From positions 1-40,622 of the IMG/VR virus record IMGVR_UViG_3300020195_000066: DNA of 40,622 nucleotides; one strand, given 5' to 3'. The DNA is from a virus. Position numbers and translations under genes: made by a program. Positions 1,523 through 38,991 of this stretch are shown here, one piece after another (position 1 is the first letter of the stretch; each line of letters starts with the position of its first letter). The notes beneath the pieces were generated by a model. It was not told where the DNA came from and searched no databases. It saw nothing but the letters and a program-made list of their open reading frames with translations.

Positions 1523-3216
1523 AAGAACGAGATTATCAAATTGCAGCTGTAGATTCTATATTCAATTGGTTCACAGAAAATGATACAAACCCATTGATTG
1601 CTATGCCGACTGGTACTGGCAAAAGCATTGTCATTGCATCTTTCTTAAAAAGAATGTTTGCGGAGTTTCCAAATCAACGAGTTATAAAACTTACTCACGT
1701 TAAAGAACTTATCGCTCAGAATTTTGATAAACTGATGCGAATTTGGCCAACGGCCCCGGCCGGCATATATTCTGCAGGGTTAAAAAGACGTGATATAAAT
1801 CGCAAAATTATATTCGGCGGAATAGCTTCCGTTATCAAAAATGCAACACTGTTCGGGCATATTGATCTTGTCATAATAGATGAAGCTCATATGGTGTCAC
1901 CTAAAGATAAAACAAGATATCATAAATTTATCAATGACCTTAAAAAAGTAAATCCTCACGTCAAAGTTATCGGTTTGACTGCTACACCTTTTCGACTTGG
2001 TCAGGGAATGCTGACTCACGGTAAGGAACCGCTCTTTGGAGGAATTTGTTTTGATCTTTGCAGTCGTGAAGCATTTAATTGGATGATTGATAATGGGTAT
2101 CTTTGTAGGTTAGTCCCAAGGCCTACAGAGACTATTTATGATTTGAGTAAAGTGTCCACAGTGGGTGGCGACTACAACCAGCAACAGTTAGCTCAAGTAA
2201 TGGATCAAGATTACCTCACGCGAAGAGCTGTTCTAGAAACAATGAGAGTGGGCAAAGATCGTAAATCTTGGCTAGTTTTCGCGTCTGGCATCAACCATGC
2301 GATAAACACCACTCGTATTCTAAATGAATATGGAGTCAAAGCTGTATGTATTCATTCGAAAATGAGTTCAGAAGAAAGAGATAACAATATCTCTAAATAC
2401 CTTTCTGGTCATTATAGTGCAATGGTCAACAACGGTATCTTGACCACAGGTTTTGACCATCCTGCACTAGATCTCATTGTAATGCTTCGAGCTACAAAAT
2501 CTGCTCAACTTTGGGTGCAGATGTTAGGACGTGGCGCGCGACCCTGCTTCATAGAAGGTTATGACCTTGAAACTGTGGACGGAAGGTTGAGTTCAATTTA
2601 TTTCAGTGACAAAAAAGACTGCTTGGTATTAGATTTTGCCGGCAATGCTCTAAGACTTGGTCCAATCAATGATCCTGTACTTCCAAAGCATAAGTCTAAG
2701 AAAGACGGGTCTTGTCCTGTCAAACTCTGTCCTGCTTGTAACACTTATAATCATTCAAGAGCTCGTTTTTGTGAATTCTGTAAATATGAATTTCCAGTTT
2801 GTTTTGATCTCGATCTTGAGGCTTCTAATGCAAATTTAGTCGCACCGGATAAACCAGATCAACCAGCAATCGTGTATGATGTGTTTAATGTGAGTTTAAT
2901 TCAATACCGAACCCATCAAAAGACAGGCTCTCCTCCGAGCATGTTAGTCAGTTATTATGTCAATAATGGATTAAGGATGTTCAAAAAATGGATCTGCTTT
3001 GAGCATCCTGGAGTTGCTGGACGTAAGGCTAAAGAATGGTGGGCGATACATTCAGATGCAGAACCACCGGAAACAGTAGAACAAGCTCTTCAAAGAACCA
3101 ATGAATTAAAACAACCGAAGACCATTAAAGTTTGGATCAATACTAAATATCCGGAGATCGTGAGTTATGAGTTCTCAACGAACATGGCAGATGGCAAACC
3201 AACAATTTCAAGTTGA
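1519..3216 (+). CDS. DEAD/DEAH-box superfamily 2 helicase
   Basis: This is a 565-residue ATP-dependent nucleic-acid helicase. The visible SF2 motifs are Walker A AMPTGTGKS (residues 28-36), DEAH at 121-124, GLTATPFR at 152-159, HSKM, motif V LTTGFDHPALD and motif VI QLWVQMLGRGARP. This resembles the UvsW/RecG-like or type III restriction-like helicases common in phages. A four-cysteine zinc ribbon (CPACNTYNHSRARFCEFC) follows the second RecA-like domain, and then comes a C-terminal domain I do not recognise. The frame is open further upstream, but ATG 1519 overlaps the nuclease stop (ATGA) and places the Q-motif (RDYQ) at the N-terminus. It probably acts in replication initiation, branch migration or recombination with the preceding nuclease. 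Confidence 0.88.
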   Translation: MKERDYQIAAVDSIFNWFTENDTNPLIAMPTGTGKSIVIASFLKRMFAEFPNQRVIKLTHVKELIAQNFDKLMRIWPTAPAGIYSAGLKRRDINRKIIFGGIASVIKNATLFGHIDLVIIDEAHMVSPKDKTRYHKFINDLKKVNPHVKVIGLTATPFRLGQGMLTHGKEPLFGGICFDLCSREAFNWMIDNGYLCRLVPRPTETIYDLSKVSTVGGDYNQQQLAQVMDQDYLTRRAVLETMRVGKDRKSWLVFASGINHAINTTRILNEYGVKAVCIHSKMSSEERDNNISKYLSGHYSAMVNNGILTTGFDHPALDLIVMLRATKSAQLWVQMLGRGARPCFIEGYDLETVDGRLSSIYFSDKKDCLVLDFAGNALRLGPINDPVLPKHKSKKDGSCPVKLCPACNTYNHSRARFCEFCKYEFPVCFDLDLEASNANLVAPDKPDQPAIVYDVFNVSLIQYRTHQKTGSPPSMLVSYYVNNGLRMFKKWICFEHPGVAGRKAKEWWAIHSDAEPPETVEQALQRTNELKQPKTIKVWINTKYPEIVSYEFSTNMADGKPTISS

Positions 3217-4887: not shown

Positions 4888-5595
4888 ATGAATAATCAAG
4901 CACCAGAAAAACCCATTCATCGTGATACTGTAATAGATCTTGTATCAATTTTTAGAACGATACAAGGTGAAGGCCCATTTGCTGGAACTCCTGCTGTATT
5001 CGTTAGATTAGCTGGATGCAATCTACAATGCCCACAATGTGATACCCAGTATACCAAAGGCAGGTATCAAGCTACTCCTCATCATATCCTCGAAAAAGTT
5101 CAAGCTGAAACAAGCAGATCAAATTTTGTTGTTATCACTGGTGGTGAACCATTCAGGCAGAACATCTTGCCTCTATGTAATTTGCTCATATCCAAAGGCT
5201 TCAGAGTTCAAATTGAAACGAACGGAACTCTCGCTCCCGAGGATATTGAAGGATTTTGCAAGATTAAAAGTTCTGGTCAATTCAGTGTAGTCTGTAGTCC
5301 AAAGACTGGAAAAGTTGCTTCGAATCTTGAGCAATTTATTACTGCATACAAATACGTCTTGAGTGCAGATTCAATGAATCATCAAGATGGATTGCCTTTA
5401 CGAGCTCTAAATCACCCCGCTAATCCACAAGTCGCGCGACCGCATCTTGGATTTTCTGGTCCAGTATTTATCCAGCCAGTTGATGTAGAAATTGATTCTG
5501 AAAACCAACGGCATTTAGATGCAACCATTCGTTCTGCGATGAAGCATGGATATACTCTGTGTCTTCAAATTCATAAAATCATCGGCTTGGAGTAA
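4888..5595 (+). CDS. queE: 7-carboxy-7-deazaguanine synthase, radical SAM
   Basis: This 235-residue enzyme converts 6-carboxy-tetrahydropterin to 7-carboxy-7-deazaguanine (CDG) using SAM and a [4Fe-4S] cluster. The cluster motif CNLQCPQC (Cys44, Cys48, Cys51; CxxxCxxC) follows SIFRTIQGEGPFAGTPAVF, the QueE signature. GGEP at 85-88 is the SAM-binding motif and IETNGT follows. The length matches the family. It is the first gene of an operon with queC, queD, folE and dpdA, so the product is directed to DNA modification rather than tRNA queuosine. The RBS is GGAG eight bases before the ATG. Confidence 0.95.
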   Translation: MNNQAPEKPIHRDTVIDLVSIFRTIQGEGPFAGTPAVFVRLAGCNLQCPQCDTQYTKGRYQATPHHILEKVQAETSRSNFVVITGGEPFRQNILPLCNLLISKGFRVQIETNGTLAPEDIEGFCKIKSSGQFSVVCSPKTGKVASNLEQFITAYKYVLSADSMNHQDGLPLRALNHPANPQVARPHLGFSGPVFIQPVDVEIDSENQRHLDATIRSAMKHGYTLCLQIHKIIGLE

Positions 5596-5598
5596 TTC

Positions 5599-6384
5599 AT
5601 GAAAAAGAAAGTCCTTATTGTCTTTTCTGGAGGACAAGATTCTACAACCTGCCTGTTCTTAGCTAAAAAATTAGAATATGATATTCATACACTGACTTTT
5701 GATTATGGTCAACGTCATAAATGTGAGATTGAAGCTGCCAATTTTATCGTCGGGCTTGCTGGCGTGAACCCAGAGCAACATGAAGTAGTCAAATTGGGTG
5801 ATGATATTCTGAAAAGCACTTCCCCTCTTGTCAGCAATGCTGAACTTGAACAATATAAAGATCATCACTCGTTGCCAGGAGGACTTGAGAAGACTTTCGT
5901 TCCAATGCGCAATCAATTATTCTTGACAATTGCTGCGAATCGTGCTTATGCCCTCGGTATATCCACAATCATAACTGGAGTATGCCAAGAAGATTCAGGT
6001 GGATATCCAGATTGTAAGCAAGGTTTTATCGATCTATTTGAAAAGACTACAATTCGTGGAACTTTCACTGATGGAGCCTTCGAAGTACGAACTCCGTTAA
6101 TGTATCTATCAAAAGCACAGACTTGTCGTCTGGCATGGATTACACCTGGAGCATATAGTGCTCTAGCTTTCAGTCATACAGGATATGATGGTGTATATCC
6201 GCCGACTGGTAAAGATCATGCGACATTACTTCGAGCCAAAGGATTTGAAGAAGCAAATCTTCCAGACCCTTTAGTTTTGCGTGCGTGGTACAGAGGTCTA
6301 ATGGATGTACCTAATACAGTCAATTACGGTTCTGAGCTAATTGAAAAGGCGATGGACTTTATTCAGAATGAAGTAATGTTATGA
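5599..6384 (+). CDS. queC: QueC-like 7-cyano-7-deazaguanine synthase lacking zinc cysteines
   Basis: A 261-residue PP-loop ATPase that in the family turns CDG plus ammonia into preQ0, through the amide ADG. The PP-loop VFSGGQDSTT (residues 8-17), TFDYGQRH, FVPMRNQLFLTIAA and GVCQEDSGGYPDC are typical QueC. In E. coli QueC the C-terminal third has four zinc cysteines (TCYNG plus GCGHCAAC). Here the same region reads HTGYDGVYPPTGKDHATLLR and all four are gone. Asp/His or another fold element may replace the metal, or the enzyme may stop at a different product. It begins 3 bp after queE and its stop overlaps the next start (ATGA). Confidence 0.88.
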   Translation: MKKKVLIVFSGGQDSTTCLFLAKKLEYDIHTLTFDYGQRHKCEIEAANFIVGLAGVNPEQHEVVKLGDDILKSTSPLVSNAELEQYKDHHSLPGGLEKTFVPMRNQLFLTIAANRAYALGISTIITGVCQEDSGGYPDCKQGFIDLFEKTTIRGTFTDGAFEVRTPLMYLSKAQTCRLAWITPGAYSALAFSHTGYDGVYPPTGKDHATLLRAKGFEEANLPDPLVLRAWYRGLMDVPNTVNYGSELIEKAMDFIQNEVML

Positions 6385-6620
6385 CTGATCTATACATGTC
6401 AAGAAGGTCAAGAAGGATGCCCAAAATGTTTAGAAATGAAGTTGATCTAAAAACATTACCTTCTAAAGAAGGATGGTATTTCTGGTCCGAATGGGGAGCT
6501 GAAGTTCTAATATACAAAAAAGATCGAGGAAAGAAATTGTTCGTAACGCCACCAAACGGCGTCGAAATCGAGATCAAACCAACCATCGCAGGAAAATTTA
6601 AATTTAGGAGAGGCAAATGA
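6381..6620 (+). CDS. Small basic protein inside the deazaguanine operon
   Basis: This 79-residue protein begins with a basic stretch (SRRSRRMPKMFRNE) and contains EGWYFWSEWGAEVLIYKKD and VEIEIKPTIAGKFKFRRGK, which looks like a small beta-barrel. It is joined to queC and queD by ATGA overlaps on both sides, so it is surely translated. I know no family for it. Its place between two biosynthetic genes suggests an accessory role in making or inserting the modified base, but this rests on context only. Confidence 0.75.
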   Translation: MTDLYMSRRSRRMPKMFRNEVDLKTLPSKEGWYFWSEWGAEVLIYKKDRGKKLFVTPPNGVEIEIKPTIAGKFKFRRGK

Positions 6621-7078
6621 CCACTGTTATCACGAGATATCATGATATTTCCACAGGCCACCGAGTACACGGTCATGAATCAAAATGTGCCAATCTTCAT
6701 GGACACAATTACAGAATTCATTTCACTGTAATGTCAAGGAAAAATCAGTTAGATACGATAGGACGTGTCGTAGACTTTTCTGTAGTGAAAACTACTCTTT
6801 GCGAATGGCTCGAGTACAATTGGGATCATAAATTCCTTATCTGGTCTCAAGATCCTATTGTGCCTCTTCTCATGTCACTTGATGAGTTTTCAAAAAAGCA
6901 AAGGTATCAAAAAGATTATGGGATTGTTCAAGTCCCATTCAACCCGACTGCGGAAAATATGGCTCAATATCTTGTTGATTTTATTGGTCCAAAACTGCTC
7001 ACACCCGATCTCGTTCTAATTGAAGTCAAGATTGAAGAGACTGCCAAATGTTCAGTCACATATGTCAAGGAATTTTGA
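6617..7078 (+). CDS. queD: 6-carboxy-5,6,7,8-tetrahydropterin synthase
   Basis: This 153-residue zinc enzyme converts 7,8-dihydroneopterin triphosphate to 6-carboxy-tetrahydropterin, the QueE substrate. The zinc histidines are His15, His28 and His30 (TGHRVHGH and NLHGHNY), with the catalytic Cys24 in ESKCANLHGH. WDHKFL supplies the active-site Asp/His pair and IEETAKCSV the glutamate near the C-terminus. It is a little longer than the typical 120 residues because of an insertion around LIWSQDPIVPLLMSLDEFSK. Starts and stops overlap both neighbours. Confidence 0.95.
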   Translation: MTTVITRYHDISTGHRVHGHESKCANLHGHNYRIHFTVMSRKNQLDTIGRVVDFSVVKTTLCEWLEYNWDHKFLIWSQDPIVPLLMSLDEFSKKQRYQKDYGIVQVPFNPTAENMAQYLVDFIGPKLLTPDLVLIEVKIEETAKCSVTYVKEF

Positions 7079-7749
7079 TGGAAGCCATGTTTGGTGATAA
7101 ACAAGCAGGGTTAGATGGAATTACTCGTTTCTGGAATGGTTTCGAGTATGTATGCATTCCAGAAGAAGAAACAAAAATACTCGAAAAACGACCTGACTTC
7201 GTTGAAGGTTTGATCAAGCATCTGCTTTTTGCTCTTGACCCAAACGCTGAGCGTGAAGGTTTGAGAGAAACCCCAGCTCGAGCTGCCAAAGCATGGCAGG
7301 ATTGGACTAGCGGCTACGCTAAAAATCCGATTGCAGAACTCAAAGTCTTTGAAGACGGCGCGGAAGGTTGTGATGAGATGGTCGTCATTCGTGGCATCCC
7401 AGTTTATAGTCATTGTGAGCACCATCTTGCTTCTATCTTCGGTACAGCCACAGTCGGCTACCTGCCGGATAAGAAGATTGTTGGCTTATCTAAAATCAGC
7501 AGGGTTGTGGATATCTTTGCACGTCGTCTTCAAGTTCAAGAAAGACTTACTGCGCAGATTGCAGATTGCATCAGTAAAGGGATCAATGCTCTTGGCGTTG
7601 GAGTTGTTATCGAGTGCCGTCATATGTGCATGGAATCACGCGGAATACGCCAACCTGGCACTATTACCACGACTAGCGCTCTTCGTGGGTTATTCAAAAC
7701 AGACGCGACTGTAAGATCTGAATTTTACTCACTTGCTCACAAGGATTAG
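7078..7749 (+). CDS. folE: GTP cyclohydrolase I
   Basis: This 223-residue type IA enzyme converts GTP to 7,8-dihydroneopterin triphosphate, the first step of both folate and 7-deazaguanine synthesis. GLRETPARAAKAWQDWTSGY is followed by the zinc and active-site motif YSHCEHHLASIFG (Cys113, His115, His116), VGLSKISRVVDIFARRLQVQ, and CRHMCMESRGI with the third zinc ligand Cys184. ATG 7078 overlaps the queD stop (TGATG). Carrying its own FolE lets the phage push host GTP into the pathway without host control. Confidence 0.96.
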   Translation: MEAMFGDKQAGLDGITRFWNGFEYVCIPEEETKILEKRPDFVEGLIKHLLFALDPNAEREGLRETPARAAKAWQDWTSGYAKNPIAELKVFEDGAEGCDEMVVIRGIPVYSHCEHHLASIFGTATVGYLPDKKIVGLSKISRVVDIFARRLQVQERLTAQIADCISKGINALGVGVVIECRHMCMESRGIRQPGTITTTSALRGLFKTDATVRSEFYSLAHKD

Positions 7750-17494: not shown

Positions 17495-20400
17495 TTAATT
17501 CCTGTATTTGTCTGTTCCTGACATTTTCAGGTCGTTGACAGCATTGGCTACTTTAACAGCAGCAGCTTCATTTTGGCTCTTGATTTCGCGATCTCGTTGT
17601 TCATCGCGCAGTTTTTGCTCTAATGCCAGTTTTGCCAATATAGAACGAGTTTCTTGTAATTCATAAATAATTGCAGACTGATTATTTTCAAAAGATTGCA
17701 TTTTAGCGTATGAACCTTCACCTATTGCAATAGATGAAGATCCATCAATAGAATTCGGGCCACCAGGGTCTGGAGGCGGAACATTTGGAGGCGGAATCAG
17801 TAAATCTAAATTTCTAATTTCTTCTAGAATTAAGAATAAAAGTTCATTGGCCGCAAAAGTATTCGCATCCACAGAGGATAAGAAATCCAATTCATTTAAG
17901 ATATCAGGGAATTCAATATCTACACCTTCCAAGAATGGAGCTAGTTGTAAACGAAGTTCTTCTGGAAGTTCATTCGTGGCACCAGCAAGTGCATTTAGAG
18001 CATTATTAGTTTCTTCTGGTCCAACTGCAAGCTCTACAGCCCGCAACAACGGTTCTAATTGATCTCTGATTTCTTGTGGCATGAAAGACAATTGAAGTTC
18101 AAACGCATCATTTAGAAGACTCTGCGCGTCTGTGAGTTCTCCAAGAGACAATCCAAGTTGATCGGCTAAAGCTGGAAGTTCAACTCCAAGTATATTCGCT
18201 ACTTCAACAAGAGTTAAAACTTGCGAAGCAGTCTCGGCAGTAATTATTCCGCCAAGATCTGTGATAAATGCTGCAAAATTGACACCTAATCTCTCTGCAA
18301 CTTCAAAAATAGTCTCGCCACTGGTTTGAGCTAACTCTCTTAGATAACCAGCCAGTTCTTCAGCAAGAGCTAAACGACGAATCGCTTCTTCATTGGCGAT
18401 CATCTCGTCACGTTGAGCATATAATTCAATAAGAGCTTCTGATGGAACTAACTCAACAGGAGTAGTGCCTTGTACAGGACTATATGGATTGATACCTAAT
18501 GCTTGAAGCTGTGCAATCAAAGCGTTTGCGGGATCGCTATAGTCCACACCAGACGCTTCTCTTGCGCGTAGCATCTGCAAGAATTGTTCAGCCAACTGAG
18601 GCAGACTGTTCAACGCATTAACGTCACCACCTTGAGCAGCTGCCAAAGCCTCATTCAACTGTCTTTGGGCTTCTAAGAATTGATCTTCTGGAGACAGTGG
18701 AGACAGATCCCCAACAAGCAGACTATCAATATATTCACCAAGCGAACGAATGCCATCCTCCCACTGACCAAAAAGATCCTCAGCAGCATCTGCAACACCT
18801 TGAGCGCCATCAATGCCCACTTGATAACTTGCTTCTAGAGCTGCGATTTGTTGTTCTAGTATAGACAGAGGGCCATAACCAAGTTCGTCAATTACAGAAC
18901 GAGCAGCATCTTCGAGCTGTCGAAGAGCTTTCTTGATCTCGTTCGCTGCCCATCTGTGGATTAAAGCAAGATCTCGAGTACTAGCACCTTCTGCACCTTG
19001 CGCTCGAGCTATAGCATTAGCATCTTTGATATAACTTGCCGTGCTACGAGTAATTCGTAACATTGAGTTCTCGAAGTCGCTTCCTTCTTGACCGATGATG
19101 GCATCTGCAATGCCTTGTGTGAACTCAGCGAGTTCTCGAGCAACATCGGTGACTGAATTGATGTTATTTTCTAATTGAGTGTAATACTGATCTGCCACTC
19201 CAGACAATCGTAACAGAGTAGCAATCTGTTCACGGCCAGATTCTGTTGTCGCGTCCAGTGTTTGCATCAATATCCACATCGCTTCGCGGGTCGTAGGAAC
19301 CGCCAAACCAACTTGCTCTAGCGCACGAGTTATATCGTTCTGTAGCAATTCGAATTTGTGCGTTTCAGGTGCAAAGTTATCGACAAAGTTCGCCATGCCG
19401 CTGATGAACTCTTCAATTCCACCGACCATAGTTATCAGTGATTCACTAATCTGTGCGAATGCTTCAGGGCCAGTTTCATCTAGTGCGAAGCCAAGTCGAA
19501 GTAAGGCTTCTTGAGTGACTTGAACACCCGTCGCAACCCGAACCAGAGTTTCGCCTAGTCCTTCACCAACACGTTGGAATTGCTCAATAAATGGCACAAC
19601 ACTTCCGACTAGACCATCGAATATAGAACTGAATACTGCATTCAACTCTGTTTGTTGTTCTTCGGCTGAAAGATCTTTCAAGCTAATACGAATCTCTTCT
19701 AAACTGAACGCTGCCAGAGCAGCTTCGATTTCTGCAGGCAGAACGCCAAGCGCCAAAGCCCCTTCTCGCACTGTGTCGACAATTGAATCCATGATTAGCT
19801 GAAATTGGGAGGCTACTTCGTCTGGAAGTCCTACTGTCTGCTCTCTTCTTCGAAGAGAACCAAATCGCCAACTTCTGCTCTGAGTTTCTTGGTATGCGCT
19901 AGCGTTTATGTTATTCAACCCGCCACCACCAAGTTGAATACCTTGATCAGTAACTCGTGAAGAACCACCCAGAAGATTCAATGGGTCCAAACGCAAGAAA
20001 CTGAGCGCCCCACCTAAGAATACATCACGAAACGCTCGAGCAATTGGTAGAGCGTCAAAACCAGCTTGACCTGCACCACGAGCAAGCATGCCACTTGCAG
20101 AACTAATGTTATTTTGCAACTGGATCAATGCATTCAGCATGCTTCGGTTGATACCAACTAGAGTTGATGTAGCGTCCGCTGTAATCTCTAATGAATTAAG
20201 AATTGATTCAGATTTAGCTTCAGCATCTCCAAGTACCGTTCCACTACCTTGCGATTCTTGACGTTCTGCAGCAGTATCGCTAAATCCGTTAGATCCTCCG
20301 AAACTACCACCGATGCTACCAATTAATCCAGCGACCGCGATAGCCATAGCAGCCATTCGAGCGAATGCAGAGTAAGGATCACCTTTACCTTGGTTCAAAA

Positions 20401-23400
20401 TGGCACTGATTGCCATTACGACATTGAGTGCATGTGAAGCGACTTCCATGGCCTTATATGATTTACTTCCTTCTTTAGCAAGCGACTGAATACTATTAAG
20501 AACTTGACCAGCGGCTTCAACCATATGAATTGCCATCTGTTGACGCAGTGAGCCCAGTGCAGCTTCCAATTCTGCAACTGGCTTGTTTTGGTCTAGAGCT
20601 TCTTTCAATGCTGCACCGACTAGTTCTATTTTTCTAATAAGTTGATCGAATCCATCTCCTTGAGTTATGTCTGCAAGTATATCTTTCAATTCTTGTTGAC
20701 TATCATTAACATCTTGTTGTTTTTCGTTTAACTCAACTAATGCTTGAGCACCACTTACAATGGCCGCATTTTCAAGTATAGTCAATTCCATAGTTTCCCG
20801 CTTTTCATTTGCATAGTCGCTTTGAGCTTCAGCAGTAGCGACAAGTATGGCTTCTTGAATTGCAAGTTGAGTATTACTCGATTTCAAAGTCTTGTTTTCT
20901 TCTTTCAAACCTTTGAGCGCACGATCAATAACAGTACCTAACGATTTACGATTCGTTTCAGTTACTTTAGCAACACGATTGGCTATTTCAAATTGACGAT
21001 TGGAAGCGGCAATTGCATCAGCTTCAGCCTTAAAAATATCTGCTGCAGAAATACCGAGATCATTAAGTTGAGTTTTCTTTTCAATCATCGTTTGTACAAG
21101 AGAGCTGATTTCGCGCAATCGTCCTGCATGATCATTTTCAGCTTGAGCAAAGTCACCATCCAAGCTACTGGATATTTCTTCACTGATGCTCTTAAGTTTG
21201 TCATATGCAGTTCTTTGTTGCTCAATCGCTTCATTACTCTTACGCAAAATAGCATCTTTATTCCGTAGAGCAGACTCAGCAGACTGTTCCGCCGTTGCAT
21301 GGGCTTTCGAAGCATTGGTAAGAGAAACAATGTTATCAATTAAATGAATGGTTTCTGCACTCATTGTCACCATAGCCTCTGTTTGACTAATGTTCAATTC
21401 AGTAGCGCGCTTAGACGCGGCTTCATAAATTAAAGCAGATCGCAGGCCATTTTCTTGTTCAATTCGAGAAAGGTTCAGTTTTTCTATCTTACTCTTAAGA
21501 GTTTCGTTAAAATCTTGTTCTGCCTTCGTAACAGCAAGAGTGATCGTTGGAACTTGATTCATCACTCCAAACATTGACATCAAACTGTCTTTCACTTCAT
21601 TGACTTTATCCACAACGCGCTGAAATTCAGGAGGTATGTTCTGTCCTGACTGTATAGAAAGAGATATAAATTCAGAGAGCGTGGCATTACCGGAACTAAT
21701 CTTCAGTTTTATATCTTCAATTGTGCTTAAAAGACTATTGCGCAATGAGCTGGATACACGATCACCTCCAGACACGAGATTCGCAAGTTGCATCTCAGCA
21801 TTTACTAATTCAACATTGAACTTAGCTATTTGAGCAGTATATTTTTCATATTGACTAACAGCTTCGACGTTTCCGGCATTAGCTCTACCTGAATTTATGA
21901 TATTTTGCAATCTAATTTGTTCACGCATTTTTGCATTCAACTCATTTAGAGCTGGAAATGGAGCACGAAGAGATTCTTCGTACTCAAGATGAGCATTTAT
22001 GAGTTGATACAGAACATAAACACCGGCAAGAGCGACAGTCGTCCATCCGCCTAGTGCGTTGAATAATCCTTTAGCAGCGAGAGTCGCTTTCTGCATAAGA
22101 ATCTGACTTGTGGTGAGTGCACCAACGAGTCCTAATTGTGCGACACCATGAGCTGCGACAGCGATAGCTAATTGTGCTTCCGTGATTGCTCGTGCTTTAG
22201 CGAGAGAATTAGCCTGAGCATTCAAACGAATAAGATTTGCTTCAGCGAGTGCTAATTCTTGGACAGCGGCAGTACGAACAGCGAGCATTGAACTCAGCTT
22301 TGCCATATCTTTTGTAGATTGGCCGGTCAATGCGATCATTTCTTTTGAACCAAGAATCATAGATTGATTCAAAGCTAATTCAGATGCTAATTGACCACGA
22401 GCGATAGCAATTCGCTCAAGTGAAACCACATTATGATGTACAGTCGCTTCTGTTTGGGCAAGAGTAGCTCGAGAAGCTGCCACTTCCGTATCTACTAATA
22501 CAGAAGTTGCTAGACTAGCTTCGTAGATGCCTCTGGTGTATGCTCCTACTCCGTTCAGCAACTTTGCACTGAATACACCTACTGCAACGATTGCAAGATT
22601 AGCAAGCAGAGACGCGATTGTATCTAACGAACCACCCTTTGCAAGATTAGTCAATGCTATCGTCAGGTCTTTAGCTCCTGTGGACAAAACTTGCATGAAG
22701 CCCGCGTTACCAATCGCAACTTGCAATTCTAAAATTGCATTCTGTAGTCTTGCAAATTCAGCAGCAGGAGTCTTTGCTGCATCTACAGCAGCAGCTCCAT
22801 AGAACTCTCTCAATTTCACTGCGAGTTTTGGTAGCATGTCTGATGCGAGCACTTCACCGCGCTCTAACATCTTACTTAGTTCTGCAGTAGTCACATTCAT
22901 GGCGTCTGCGGCAAGCGCAAAGGCTCCAGGAATACGTTCTGCTAACTGACCGCGGAGCTCTTCAGCTTGGACGTTACCCTTACTAATCATCTGCTCTATT
23001 GCTCGCAGAGCACCTGTAGTCTGTTCAGCGCTTAGGTTGAGAACGCGGGACGCTTCAGATATTGAAGTAAAGATATCACGAACTTGTTGACCTGCCAGAC
23101 TGGTCCCACGAGTAGCAGCAGTCAACTTGGCAAAAGAGAATGTACTTGTGTCCAGCGATATACCAAGTCGGTCTGCTTCAGAACGAGCATATTCAAGACT
23201 AATAGCACCTTCGGTTGCAGATCCAGCAGCAGCATTAAATGATTGACGCCAACCGATCATTTTATTAGAACTGTCCACAATGCCTCTTGTGAACTGAGTG
23301 ATTACAGCTGTCACACCGAAAGCAGCAGTCAAACGAAAAAGACCGTCTTTGACATTGTTTACGGAATGGAGGAGATTATCACTTGAAGTTCTGGCGAGCT

Positions 23401-23536
23401 GGAAGCCGGAAGACATATTTTGTCCAGCAGCTCTCGCGGCTCTACCTACTGCAAGTTCAGCAGCGGTTACTCTATCTAATTCAGTAACGGCAGATCTTGT
23501 GTCTGCCGTTACCTTCATGTTGACAACAAGAGTCAT
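17495..23536 (-). CDS. Tape measure protein
   Basis: At 2013 residues it is the largest gene here. It fixes tail length and is ejected with DNA. The N-terminus (NMKVTADTRSAVTELDRV) and residues about 100-270 (RSEADRLGISLDTSTFSFAK, GNVQAEELRGQLAERIPGAF) match the tape-measure domain common in siphophages (TMP_3-like). Long helical, Ala/Glu/Gln-rich stretches follow, with hydrophobic segments near residues 490-510 (GWTTVALAGVYVLYQLINAH) and about 1070 (MAIAVAGLIGSIGG). About 1.5 angstroms per residue predicts a tail near 300 nm. It is directly downstream of the gpG/gpGT frameshift pair. Confidence 0.96.
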   Translation of the reverse strand: MTLVVNMKVTADTRSAVTELDRVTAAELAVGRAARAAGQNMSSGFQLARTSSDNLLHSVNNVKDGLFRLTAAFGVTAVITQFTRGIVDSSNKMIGWRQSFNAAAGSATEGAISLEYARSEADRLGISLDTSTFSFAKLTAATRGTSLAGQQVRDIFTSISEASRVLNLSAEQTTGALRAIEQMISKGNVQAEELRGQLAERIPGAFALAADAMNVTTAELSKMLERGEVLASDMLPKLAVKLREFYGAAAVDAAKTPAAEFARLQNAILELQVAIGNAGFMQVLSTGAKDLTIALTNLAKGGSLDTIASLLANLAIVAVGVFSAKLLNGVGAYTRGIYEASLATSVLVDTEVAASRATLAQTEATVHHNVVSLERIAIARGQLASELALNQSMILGSKEMIALTGQSTKDMAKLSSMLAVRTAAVQELALAEANLIRLNAQANSLAKARAITEAQLAIAVAAHGVAQLGLVGALTTSQILMQKATLAAKGLFNALGGWTTVALAGVYVLYQLINAHLEYEESLRAPFPALNELNAKMREQIRLQNIINSGRANAGNVEAVSQYEKYTAQIAKFNVELVNAEMQLANLVSGGDRVSSSLRNSLLSTIEDIKLKISSGNATLSEFISLSIQSGQNIPPEFQRVVDKVNEVKDSLMSMFGVMNQVPTITLAVTKAEQDFNETLKSKIEKLNLSRIEQENGLRSALIYEAASKRATELNISQTEAMVTMSAETIHLIDNIVSLTNASKAHATAEQSAESALRNKDAILRKSNEAIEQQRTAYDKLKSISEEISSSLDGDFAQAENDHAGRLREISSLVQTMIEKKTQLNDLGISAADIFKAEADAIAASNRQFEIANRVAKVTETNRKSLGTVIDRALKGLKEENKTLKSSNTQLAIQEAILVATAEAQSDYANEKRETMELTILENAAIVSGAQALVELNEKQQDVNDSQQELKDILADITQGDGFDQLIRKIELVGAALKEALDQNKPVAELEAALGSLRQQMAIHMVEAAGQVLNSIQSLAKEGSKSYKAMEVASHALNVVMAISAILNQGKGDPYSAFARMAAMAIAVAGLIGSIGGSFGGSNGFSDTAAERQESQGSGTVLGDAEAKSESILNSLEITADATSTLVGINRSMLNALIQLQNNISSASGMLARGAGQAGFDALPIARAFRDVFLGGALSFLRLDPLNLLGGSSRVTDQGIQLGGGGLNNINASAYQETQSRSWRFGSLRRREQTVGLPDEVASQFQLIMDSIVDTVREGALALGVLPAEIEAALAAFSLEEIRISLKDLSAEEQQTELNAVFSSIFDGLVGSVVPFIEQFQRVGEGLGETLVRVATGVQVTQEALLRLGFALDETGPEAFAQISESLITMVGGIEEFISGMANFVDNFAPETHKFELLQNDITRALEQVGLAVPTTREAMWILMQTLDATTESGREQIATLLRLSGVADQYYTQLENNINSVTDVARELAEFTQGIADAIIGQEGSDFENSMLRITRSTASYIKDANAIARAQGAEGASTRDLALIHRWAANEIKKALRQLEDAARSVIDELGYGPLSILEQQIAALEASYQVGIDGAQGVADAAEDLFGQWEDGIRSLGEYIDSLLVGDLSPLSPEDQFLEAQRQLNEALAAAQGGDVNALNSLPQLAEQFLQMLRAREASGVDYSDPANALIAQLQALGINPYSPVQGTTPVELVPSEALIELYAQRDEMIANEEAIRRLALAEELAGYLRELAQTSGETIFEVAERLGVNFAAFITDLGGIITAETASQVLTLVEVANILGVELPALADQLGLSLGELTDAQSLLNDAFELQLSFMPQEIRDQLEPLLRAVELAVGPEETNNALNALAGATNELPEELRLQLAPFLEGVDIEFPDILNELDFLSSVDANTFAANELLFLILEEIRNLDLLIPPPNVPPPDPGGPNSIDGSSSIAIGEGSYAKMQSFENNQSAIIYELQETRSILAKLALEQKLRDEQRDREIKSQNEAAAVKVANAVNDLKMSGTDKYRN

Positions 23537-31465: not shown

Positions 31466-33991
31466 TTAGTTCCTAAGACGATAAATTTGTACTTCACGAG
31501 ATTTCGACAGGCATTTATATCTAACGTCATCATAAGCATGATCTTCGCCATCAGTATCAACATCTTCTTCGTTATCTGGGTCTCTTGATAAAGTTGGTAA
31601 AGTGGAGATTGCCGCTCTACAATTATCTAAGAAATAAATTCCAGCTTTTTCGTTATTCTTTGAATTTAACATACGATCGCGCAAGAGAGCTAAACCATTT
31701 CGGCGAGAACCTGGGCCTTTGTCTGACGGTGTCCAGTAGACACCTCTCTGCGCCATCTTCACTTCAATACTATCGACATCGCGCTCTCTGACATCGCGTA
31801 TCTGATTGTCAGCTGCTCCGCCCACTACAGGCCCGTTGATCCAACCTTGGTCCAACATCTCTTTTTCACGCAACTTGATACCATCCGCGATTGTGCTAGC
31901 AGCTAGCATCAAACCTTCATTGCTATATCCGGTCTTTGATTTATTTGCCTTTGCGCCATACCATTCTGCGATACGAATGTATGAGCCTTTAGCAGGAGTC
32001 CACTTAGTTCCGTCTTGAAGAGTAAAATCTTCTCCGTTAGCTTCAGCCCACCACCCAATGCTGAATGGAGTCGTTGAGCCCCAGTCAAAAGTGCGGTCTA
32101 AACGGCAACCTCTAGGGATCTTCATACGAGGTTTGATTAGATGTTTTCCCCAGAGGTCGTCGAGAACACCTCCAGCCACAATATCCCAATCTCCGTGAAG
32201 CCACGCTTTTCTTTTATTCTCATCTGGGATAGATTCAAGCTCTGCAACATACTCAGGAGAAAGGTATTTATTCTCTTGATAAGTACCGAACAACCAAACC
32301 TGAGTCTTAATGACGTCTTCACGTTTCTGAGTACGTGGATTGAATACATTAGTCACTGTCTTTAAGATTTTTCCAGCAGGGGAAGCATCGATGAATCTTT
32401 CTTTGACCCAATTATGACCAGGACCATGGGGATTTGTTGTGCTGAATACGCATAACGGAATTTCCGGTAAAACATCCATTGCTCCAGTAGAACGATTTGG
32501 AGGTGAATGTTCATTTGGCAAAAATGAAGTACGATTACAAGACATCATTAAATCATACAATTTCGAAGTCGGGTATTTAGTTAGCTCATTCCAACCAATA
32601 AACGGGAATTCTTGACCATGAAAATTGTAGTAGTCTTTTTCTTCTTTGACTTGTCTAAATAATAACTGCTCACCCGTAGGCCAAACCCAACGATAATCAG
32701 ATTTAGAAGCCAAAAATCTAACTCCGTCTTCAAACTTCGTGAACCATCTAAATGTCTTTTGAATCAAGTCATCAAGATTTTTATACTGGCGATCAAAAAT
32801 GACACCTTTCCAAAATGCACCATAGCCGATGCCAACATGGCGTCGAAAAAACATAATCTGAGCATCAGTGTTATGAGTGACAATAAAATCGTTTGTTATG
32901 AATAAACCATCTTGATGTGCGATTTTAATGCAAACACTTTCTTGCGGTTCCAATTCTTGAATATCACATATTTTGTTCGTAAGGTGTTTGTGCATGTATG
33001 ATTGCACACGAATGGCTTTACGTATAAGTCGAAACGGAGAGAATTTAGTTGCACATTGCAGATAGACACTATAAGCACGTCGATGGGCAACACCTGTGAT
33101 TTTACTTACTCCCATATCTTTGCTCGTCAATGTTGCCTTAGCTCCAAGAGATCTAGCAAGATATTGAACATCTTTTGCTAACTGCTCACTGACACTACAA
33201 AAACTGACATAGCCTTTTGGATCACTTCTTCCGTTTGTGTCCATCAAACCTTGCAATATCGAAAGACGATTCTTAGAACTATTATTCAGATATTCTTTTG
33301 GAATAAATTTGTCATGCGAGCGGCATTTACGAACTCCTAGACTTGCAATAGCTGTTTGCATCTCAATAGAAGGTTTGAAGATACGCAAACCATTTCTAGA
33401 ATCTGGGCTGAGTTCACGAAAATCATTCGCGAGAACATATTGTGCGAGTTGTTCATCATTTGTGCAATAGGACATTGCTTGAGCAAAACATCCATCACCA
33501 AGCATTAAACCAAAAAGATAAGGATCAACTCGAACCAATTGTTCATTCATATAGATACAAGAGAGTGTAGGGATATTCACTCTCTGCCAGCCACTATTAA
33601 ATTTCTTCAATACTTCTAGCATTCCTAGATTTGCATAACTTCCAGGACTATTGCCCCCTACATGAACTCTCCAAATATGAAGATCATCACAACGAGCAAT
33701 CGACCCGTCGGCTAATGTCAATTTGAATATAGGACGCTTTCCTTGAGGATAAACGCCTACAACTTCAGAGGTACTCCCGTCTGGACAACATATCAAATCT
33801 CCAACTACAAGATCTCCAATTGGTCGAAAACCAGTTGGAGTTAAAACTGGTTCTGTTAAGGGCAGACCTTTTCCAGGACCACGGGTCCCGGTATAAAGCG
33901 TATGATTGCAGGGGCTGGACACTGCAAGGGTTTGAGACCCTTGCAGAGGAGTCCACACAATTTTAGGTTCCGCTGTTGGCAACTGCGTCAT
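31466..33991 (-). CDS. terL: Terminase large subunit with in-frame intein
   Basis: An 841-residue precursor; splicing removes residues 42-374 to give a 508-residue ATPase-nuclease that packages DNA into the capsid. The extein Walker A GTRGPGK-T is split after the Lys; splicing restores GPGKTDAQIMFF. Walker B region FPFIGWNELTKYP follows. The C-terminal RNase H-like nuclease shows DRTFDWGSTTPFSIGWW, VVGGAADNQI and DGEDHAYDDVRY as acidic motifs. Unspliced protein would lack a working P-loop, so packaging depends on splicing. The start overlaps terS by 29 bp; the RBS is weak. Confidence 0.93.
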   Translation of the reverse strand: MTQLPTAEPKIVWTPLQGSQTLAVSSPCNHTLYTGTRGPGKGLPLTEPVLTPTGFRPIGDLVVGDLICCPDGSTSEVVGVYPQGKRPIFKLTLADGSIARCDDLHIWRVHVGGNSPGSYANLGMLEVLKKFNSGWQRVNIPTLSCIYMNEQLVRVDPYLFGLMLGDGCFAQAMSYCTNDEQLAQYVLANDFRELSPDSRNGLRIFKPSIEMQTAIASLGVRKCRSHDKFIPKEYLNNSSKNRLSILQGLMDTNGRSDPKGYVSFCSVSEQLAKDVQYLARSLGAKATLTSKDMGVSKITGVAHRRAYSVYLQCATKFSPFRLIRKAIRVQSYMHKHLTNKICDIQELEPQESVCIKIAHQDGLFITNDFIVTHNTDAQIMFFRRHVGIGYGAFWKGVIFDRQYKNLDDLIQKTFRWFTKFEDGVRFLASKSDYRWVWPTGEQLLFRQVKEEKDYYNFHGQEFPFIGWNELTKYPTSKLYDLMMSCNRTSFLPNEHSPPNRSTGAMDVLPEIPLCVFSTTNPHGPGHNWVKERFIDASPAGKILKTVTNVFNPRTQKREDVIKTQVWLFGTYQENKYLSPEYVAELESIPDENKRKAWLHGDWDIVAGGVLDDLWGKHLIKPRMKIPRGCRLDRTFDWGSTTPFSIGWWAEANGEDFTLQDGTKWTPAKGSYIRIAEWYGAKANKSKTGYSNEGLMLAASTIADGIKLREKEMLDQGWINGPVVGGAADNQIRDVRERDVDSIEVKMAQRGVYWTPSDKGPGSRRNGLALLRDRMLNSKNNEKAGIYFLDNCRAAISTLPTLSRDPDNEEDVDTDGEDHAYDDVRYKCLSKSREVQIYRLRN
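32870..33868 (-). mobile_element. Class 3-type intein with LAGLIDADG endonuclease
   Basis: 333 residues from Gly1 (GLPLTEPVLTPTGFRPIGD) to the C-terminal His-Asn, followed by extein Thr. Position 1 is Gly, so the usual Cys/Ser nucleophile is absent. The class 3 triad is present: Trp66 (DDLHIWRV, two after the block B His64), Cys313 (SVCIKI, block F) and Thr331 (VTHN, block G). Endonuclease motifs: LFGLMLGDG with Asp125 intact and LQGLMDTNG where Asn212 replaces the catalytic Asp. Splicing is probably functional, since it must restore the TerL P-loop; homing is probably lost or impaired. Confidence 0.88.
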
Positions 33992-34526
33992 GTTGTAACC
34001 TATTCTGGCTCACTGTAGCAACATTCTCCCAATCAATATCTGTAGGAGCCAGAGCAACGACCATGATGCCGCCTTTATGAGTGATGGTTTGTTCAGTTTT
34101 GATTGCAGCTTCAAAGCCCATAATTTTGGAGACCTGAGACCATGCTTGAACGCGAGCAGCATGTTTGCTATCTGGGCCTTCATTACGAGCCTCCTGAACT
34201 AATCCGATAATCACTTCTTTACGAGTAATTATATCATCGTCGTCCATCTTATCGCGCATCCTACGCATTCGATCTTGGACATACGGTTCGTAATATAGTT
34301 CACTTCCTTTCTTAGAAGCACTTCTTGGAGCATATCCAGCCGCAACAGCAGCTTGAGCTTTAGTATGTCCTCTCAATAAAAAGTCAACATATCTATTTCG
34401 AATAGCTTTAGACGCAGGACTAATTCGTTCCGTTGTACGACTCATGATCATTATTGTGGAGCGAGAATTTGGGTTAGCCCTTGGTCGAGGGACTATAGCA
34501 TGCTCAGGAGTTTCGGTCTGTGTCAT
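33963..34526 (-). CDS. terS: Terminase small subunit
   Basis: 187 residues from ATG 34526. It recognises phage DNA and starts packaging with TerL. Residues about 45-75 hold a helix-turn-helix region with AQAAVAAGYAPRSASKKG, the typical TerS 'A.AA..AGYs..sA...g' motif, followed by YVQDRMRRMRDKM and a helical oligomerisation part. The Terminase_2-like pattern is clear. Its RBS (AGGAG) lies inside the right arm of the terminator-like hairpin upstream. An alternative start at MIMSRTT would be 25 residues shorter. Confidence 0.85.
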   Translation of the reverse strand: MTQTETPEHAIVPRPRANPNSRSTIMIMSRTTERISPASKAIRNRYVDFLLRGHTKAQAAVAAGYAPRSASKKGSELYYEPYVQDRMRRMRDKMDDDDIITRKEVIIGLVQEARNEGPDSKHAARVQAWSQVSKIMGFEAAIKTEQTITHKGGIMVVALAPTDIDWENVATVSQNRLQHDAVANSGT

Positions 34527-34527
34527 T

Positions 34528-34570
34528 AAAAAGGCTCCTAGGTATAGATGCGACACTATACCTAAGAGCC
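34528..34570 (-). terminator. Terminator-like hairpin overlapping the terS RBS
   Basis: On the minus strand GGCTC, mismatch, 9-bp TAGGTATAG/CTATACCTA stem and GAGCC, with an 8-nt loop, lead straight into TTTTT just before the terS ATG. The right arm contains AGGAG, the terS Shine-Dalgarno, eight bases before the start. It can therefore act as a terminator for lysis-gene transcripts and as a lid on the terS RBS. Confidence 0.75.
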
Positions 34571-38892: not shown

Positions 38893-38917
38893 AGGCCGGA
38901 ATTAATTCAAGTGATTG

Positions 38918-38991
38918 TAGCGAGGACAGGATTCGAACCTGTGACCTGTGAGTTATGAGTCCACCGAGCTACCAGACTGCTCTACCTCGCG
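38918..38991 (-). tRNA. tRNA with CAU anticodon, initiator-like
   Basis: A 74-nt cloverleaf without encoded CCA. Acceptor CGCGAGG/CCTCGCT has a mismatched first pair C1-U72; D-stem GAGC/GCTC with A11-U24; anticodon loop CTCATAA; T-arm ACAGG-TTCGAAT-CCTGT perfect. The mismatch at 1-72, the A11-U24 pair and the D-arm AGTCTGGTA loop are initiator (fMet) features. The anticodon stem is weak (G30-U40, A31-C39) and lacks the three G-C pairs of initiators. Elongator Met or Ile (lysidine-modified CAU) cannot be excluded. Confidence 0.85.

Follow-up and report, generated by a model that had tools for sequence, protein, structure and literature searches.

A class 3 intein within the P-loop of a phage terminase large subunit, with Asn at a catalytic position of its homing endonuclease

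We analyzed a 40,622-nucleotide stretch of viral DNA (IMG/VR record IMGVR_UViG_3300020195_000066, positions 1 to 40,622; henceforth the window) in which the P-loop of the terminase large subunit (TerL) is split by a long in-frame insert. The locus raises the question of what the insert is, whether TerL can be restored from the interrupted gene and whether the insert can still spread. The reading that we favor, with a probability of about 85%, is a class 3 LAGLIDADG intein at the K^T site of the TerL Walker A motif (^ marks the insertion point) that is predicted to splice, has moved horizontally and carries an endonuclease that is probably inactive.

The insert (32870-33868, minus strand) comprises 333 residues and separates GPGK from the Walker A Thr, after residue 41 of TerL. 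The gene is laid out as follows:

31466 to 33991, minus strand: TerL precursor ORF, 841 amino acids, or 508 once the insert is removed
33869 to 33991, minus strand: N-extein, 41 amino acids, ending in GTRGPGK (Walker A through its Lys), in a P-loop that is uninterrupted in 80 relatives
32867 to 32869, minus strand: +1 Thr, the first C-extein residue and the Walker A Thr
31466 to 32869, minus strand: C-extein of TerL, 467 amino acids, similar to annotated terminases

The ORF is free of stops and frameshifts across all 841 codons. Its C-extein opens with TDAQIMF, and the joined extein of 508 residues is a phage terminase large subunit with at most 66% identity to annotated TerLs, which come from Pseudomonas and Stenotrophomonas phages. 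An unannotated Variovorax phage protein also matches the extein and, like the annotated TerLs, does so unbroken across the insert region. We used the part of TerL after the insert as a query against IMG/VR and inspected the 80 best-matching TerL loci. Walker A was uninterrupted at the insertion point in all 80, mostly reading GTRGPGK-T. Because every one of these relatives reads through, the insert represents an insertion into a conserved P-loop.

The gene for the terminase small subunit (33963-34556) lies upstream of TerL, and the portal, scaffold and major head genes lie downstream. Elsewhere in the window, genes for a QueE-like protein, QueC, QueD/PTPS and GTP cyclohydrolase I (4888-7749, plus strand) suggest 7-deazaguanine DNA modification in this phage. 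The window also encodes a tape measure protein of 2013 amino acids (17495-23536, minus strand) and a single tRNA-Met (38917-38991, minus strand).

Class 3 inteins are defined by a Trp/Cys/Thr triad, WCT (PMC5050341, PMC7664689, PMC5222942). We compared the insert, full-length homologues of which are present in hundreds of phages, with two sets of intein relatives. The first comprises 80 full-length relatives from IMG/VR, retrieved with a search pattern that permitted Asp or Asn at residue 212. The second comprises 84 relatives, bacterial genomes included, was retrieved with patterns placed elsewhere in the protein and partly overlaps the first. The intein and its splicing residues are:

32870 to 33868, minus strand: class 3 intein, 333 amino acids, assigned from residues, homologue alignment, structural model and fold match
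33677 to 33679, minus strand: His64 of block B, His in 80/80 relatives
33671 to 33673, minus strand: Trp66 of block B, the W of WCT, Trp in 79/80 and 84/84 relatives
32930 to 32932, minus strand: Cys313, the block F nucleophile and C of WCT, Cys in 80/80 and 84/84 relatives
32876 to 32878, minus strand: Thr331 of block G, the T of WCT, Thr in 78/80 relatives
32870 to 32875, minus strand: His332-Asn333 at the C-terminal splice junction, His in 79/80 and Asn in 80/80 relatives

Inteins of this class do without an N-terminal Cys1 or Ser1 nucleophile, and the window intein starts with Gly1, as do its close relatives at the same site. With Gly1, His64, Trp66, Cys313, Thr331, His332, Asn333 and the +1 Thr all in place, identification as a class 3 intein is strongly supported by sequence. 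Since the defining residues are conserved in the window intein and in its relatives, splicing would proceed through Cys313. We also weighed three other readings: an intein of class 1, an intein of class 2, and an insert that does not splice and kills TerL. A first residue that is neither Cys nor Ser does resemble class 2. Inteins of that class, however, have Ala1 and a penultimate Ser rather than His (PMC4031507), whereas here the corresponding residues are Gly1 and His332. The complete WCT and the class 3 identity of the closest homologues oppose both class 1 and class 2, and a dead insert is hard to reconcile with a clean ORF in an essential packaging gene and with conserved splice residues. 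We therefore rejected all three readings on the residues of the window intein and regard them as scarcely credible. A protein query for a close copy of the intein in IMG/VR recovered only a remote intein of the DnaB type, which shows the features typical of class 1. The PF05203 profile had no match in the window record, nor in control sequences.

Much of this had been anticipated. The original prediction placed an insert of this length at these coordinates in a 508-residue extein, and re-reading the ORF reproduced each figure exactly; the empty site that it proposed to look for in related phages is present in all 80 of the nearest IMG/VR TerLs. Its Gly start, His-Asn end, Trp66, Cys313 and Thr331 are each where it had put them, and its class 3 assignment is borne out by a complete WCT in conserved columns and by the class 3 identity of the closest homologues.

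The insert divides into three parts:

33557 to 33868, minus strand: N-terminal half of the splicing (Hint) domain, residues 1-104, from the model and matches to class 3 DnaB and gp41-1 inteins; boundary approximate
33014 to 33556, minus strand: LAGLIDADG homing-endonuclease domain, approximately residues 105-285, from Pfam and the PI-SceI fold match
32870 to 33013, minus strand: C-terminal half of the splicing domain, residues 286-333, from the model and alignment

Pfam LAGLIDADG_3 and Hom_end both scored above cut-off on the insert. Profile matching paired the splicing part most closely with the solved structures of gp41-1 and class 3 DnaB inteins, and the endonuclease part with those of PI-SceI and PI-PfuI. 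An AlphaFold model of the intein, built from an alignment of 60 homologues, reached a mean pLDDT of 94 and a pTM of 0.92. Foldseek with this model ranked PI-SceI first, and the best PDB matches were inteins with a homing endonuclease; the class 3 mini-inteins 6rix/6riy (MchDnaB-1) and 6bs8 (M. smegmatis DnaB) were also recovered. The Hint fold of class 3 inteins is thus present in the model and among its PDB intein matches. Model helices 116-125 and 198-212 terminate at Asp125 and Asn212, respectively. The residues that bear on cleavage, with PI-SceI numbers counted off the printed profile alignment, are:

33494 to 33496, minus strand: Asp125 (LMLGDG), the first catalytic acid, at the end of LAGLIDADG helix 116-125, aligned with PI-SceI Asp218
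33308 to 33310, minus strand: Lys187, the block D lysine, aligned with PI-SceI Lys301, Lys in 79/80 relatives
33233 to 33235, minus strand: Asn212 (AAC; LMDTNG), in place of the second catalytic Asp, at the end of helix 198-212, aligned with PI-SceI Asp326

The window intein therefore retains two LAGLIDADG helices and the block D lysine of an active enzyme, and an acid ends only the first helix. Position 212 is Asp in 80/80 relatives of the first set and in 83/84 of the second, where only L222, a contig with a frameshift and a stretch of N, differs. This contig, from the Neisseriaceae MAG AWTP1-37, holds a class 3 intein relative in which the frame is lost and undetermined bases fall inside the endonuclease domain. 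Because Asn212 aligns with PI-SceI Asp326 and the relatives have Asp, it marks a genuine change at the catalytic position. The original prediction had read Asn212 as standing in for the catalytic acid and had pointed to Asp at this position in related phages, and both the profile alignment and the two sets of relatives agree with it. In LAGLIDADG enzymes, such a replacement of Asp abolishes double-strand cleavage, and substitutions of PI-SceI Asp326 reportedly do so. Loss of double-strand cleavage in the window intein is thus likely, judging from its residues.

Relatives at the same site have an Asp codon at 212, a single base away from the AAC of the window. The Asn could thus have arisen by error when the metagenomic contig was sequenced or assembled, in which case the real phage would have Asp and an active endonuclease. 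That the change is seen in one contig, differs by one base and comes with no other decay would fit such an error. We searched other contigs for the stretch GLMDT[DN]GRSDP and found none; the scan may omit records near the window, so the missing second copy of the Asn212 stretch, although on the side of an error, is weak either way. Against an error, nothing else disturbs the 841-codon ORF, which contains neither stops nor frameshifts, and we consider this explanation quite unlikely.

We looked for further signs of decay. The window intein contains no stop and no deletion, and Asp125 and Lys187 are kept. Compared with its nearest relative (L186), it has 16 versus 12 lineage-unique changes in the endonuclease domain and 17 versus 15 in the splicing domain (Fisher p = 0.8 between domains), and faster decay of the endonuclease domain was not found in this pair. 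Since no other catalytic residue is gone, loss of the endonuclease looks recent. The change itself may have occurred recently, may be an error confined to one contig or may be tolerated. If tolerated, the enzyme would still be active, perhaps with reduced or strand-specific (nicking) activity that still promotes homing. The intact fold, with Asp125 and Lys187, and the lack of any surplus of changes elsewhere in the domain speak for continued activity, as do related class 3 inteins that form a natural group, have Asn in motif 1 and show no further visible decay. The Asp of the second motif, however, is otherwise invariant in the sampled inteins, and the reported effect of Asp326 substitutions weighs the same way. 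On balance we hold continued activity to be unlikely.

The motif 1 group consists of seven class 3 inteins (L243, L245, L250, L251, L264, L273 and L276) that share Asn in the first LAGLIDADG motif (LGNG). They interrupt one P-loop protein, at GQPK[TS]GK^T, and keep the second Asp; the change is common across contigs. Because such a group exists, a single Asp-to-Asn change need not bring immediate decay. It is conceivable, though very improbable, that Asn212 is a selected functional state, a LAGLIDADG domain that nicks or only binds DNA and thereby homes by nicking or regulates packaging; the same may hold for the motif 1 group.

Returning to a probably inactive endonuclease, the proposal in the original prediction that homing is decaying is plausible but stands only in part. 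The second catalytic acid is lost, as it said; there is no further decay, and the evidence is one residue of one metagenomic contig. Its additional suggestion, that the intein builds a delay into packaging, is unsupported, as no result bears on it.

We located inteins at the same TerL site in IMG/VR with DNA patterns for both junctions. Class 3 inteins lie exactly at GPGK^T in at least six IMG/VR TerLs (L172, which equals L091, L184, L186, L187, L191/L197 and L199). All same-site TerL inteins have Asp at 212, including that of L194 (2254-3684). In L194 the C-junction is broken, with no THN and loss of frame, and undetermined bases occur further on, reflecting either poor sequence or a damaged element. 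A divergent intein occupies the same K^T site in L200 (IMGVR_UViG_3300022221_000149, 2171-3142, minus strand). It is approximately 33% identical to the window intein, and its signatures are part class 1, part class 3: it has Cys1 together with a complete WCT.

Between the window and L186, the inteins share 66% identity and the exteins only 48%. The nearest relatives of the window extein are instead empty TerLs, at approximately 66% identity. In the extein tree the window falls among empty TerLs, and grouping with L184 and L186 was rejected (AU test p = 0.00095). In the intein tree it groups with L184/L186, with a support (90/94) that does not reach the strict threshold. The contrast recurs between L184 and L186, whose inteins are 91% and exteins 78% identical. 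Because the intein is closer to L186 than the extein is and the extein tree rejects the grouping, the comparisons support horizontal movement of the window intein, which would have come from a more distant phage group into an otherwise empty TerL lineage. Such a transfer would imply that an active endonuclease brought the intein in, unless general recombination carried it.

The steps of class 3 splicing are published (PMC4031507, PMC5222942, PMC7664689), and the residues of the window intein suggest how they would run here. Attack by Cys313 on the N-junction, at its Lys-Gly bond, would give the branched intermediate at the block F Cys that is a mark of the class; the N-extein would then be handed to the +1 Thr, and cyclization of Asn333 would free the 508-residue TerL with its GPGKT loop intact. 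An endonuclease that has Asn where the second metal-binding Asp should be would probably make no double-strand break. The intein would then be inherited vertically and retained, because its essential host gene can accommodate it only as long as splicing continues.

We compared the window intein with known systems. Six IMG/VR TerL inteins are 47-67% identical to it: L184/L228 (3300035180_001575), L186/L227 (3300035661_000831), L199/L230 (3300001281_000021), L091 (3300044691_000292), L187 and L197. They share the GPGK^T site, a GLP-[LI] start, the WCT and a full LAGLIDADG domain, but have Asp212 where the window has Asn212. TerL K^T is the 'classic' P-loop intein site of the mycobacteriophage TerL1-a inteins (PMC5050341), which also lie between the Walker A Lys and Thr, although the terminase differs. 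Inteins of class 3 type also occupy TerL K^T in two cultured phages, Mycobacterium phage JeTaime and the T4-like ELT3. The JeTaime intein, class 3 by sequence like ours, is 29% identical to the window intein, in a different terminase and with GLMDTDG intact. The class 3 DnaB inteins (MchDnaB-1, 6rix; M. smegmatis DnaBi1, 6bs8) share the WCT splicing domain but are mini-inteins without an endonuclease, in helicase hosts. PI-SceI (VMA1 intein, 1vde/1dfa) combines Hint and LAGLIDADG domains as here, with catalytic positions that align one to one, but is class 1, resides in a yeast ATPase and has both Asp residues. An inactive LAGLIDADG domain is published for the PhoVMA intein (7qst, PMC8966425), which resembles the window intein in this respect; PhoVMA, however, is class 1 and archaeal, and has lost both catalytic Asp residues and undergone truncation.

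Class 3 inteins had already been suggested to originate in phages, in work cited by PMC4031507. The class and the site are both known already, and the window adds one unusual residue, Asn212. Judging by the two trees, the locus shows a class 3 intein that has moved horizontally, at a single Walker A site, from one terminase to another that is only distantly related. With Asp212 in the relatives and Asn212 in the window, at the same site and in the same gene family, it supplies the homing-cycle model with a natural pair.
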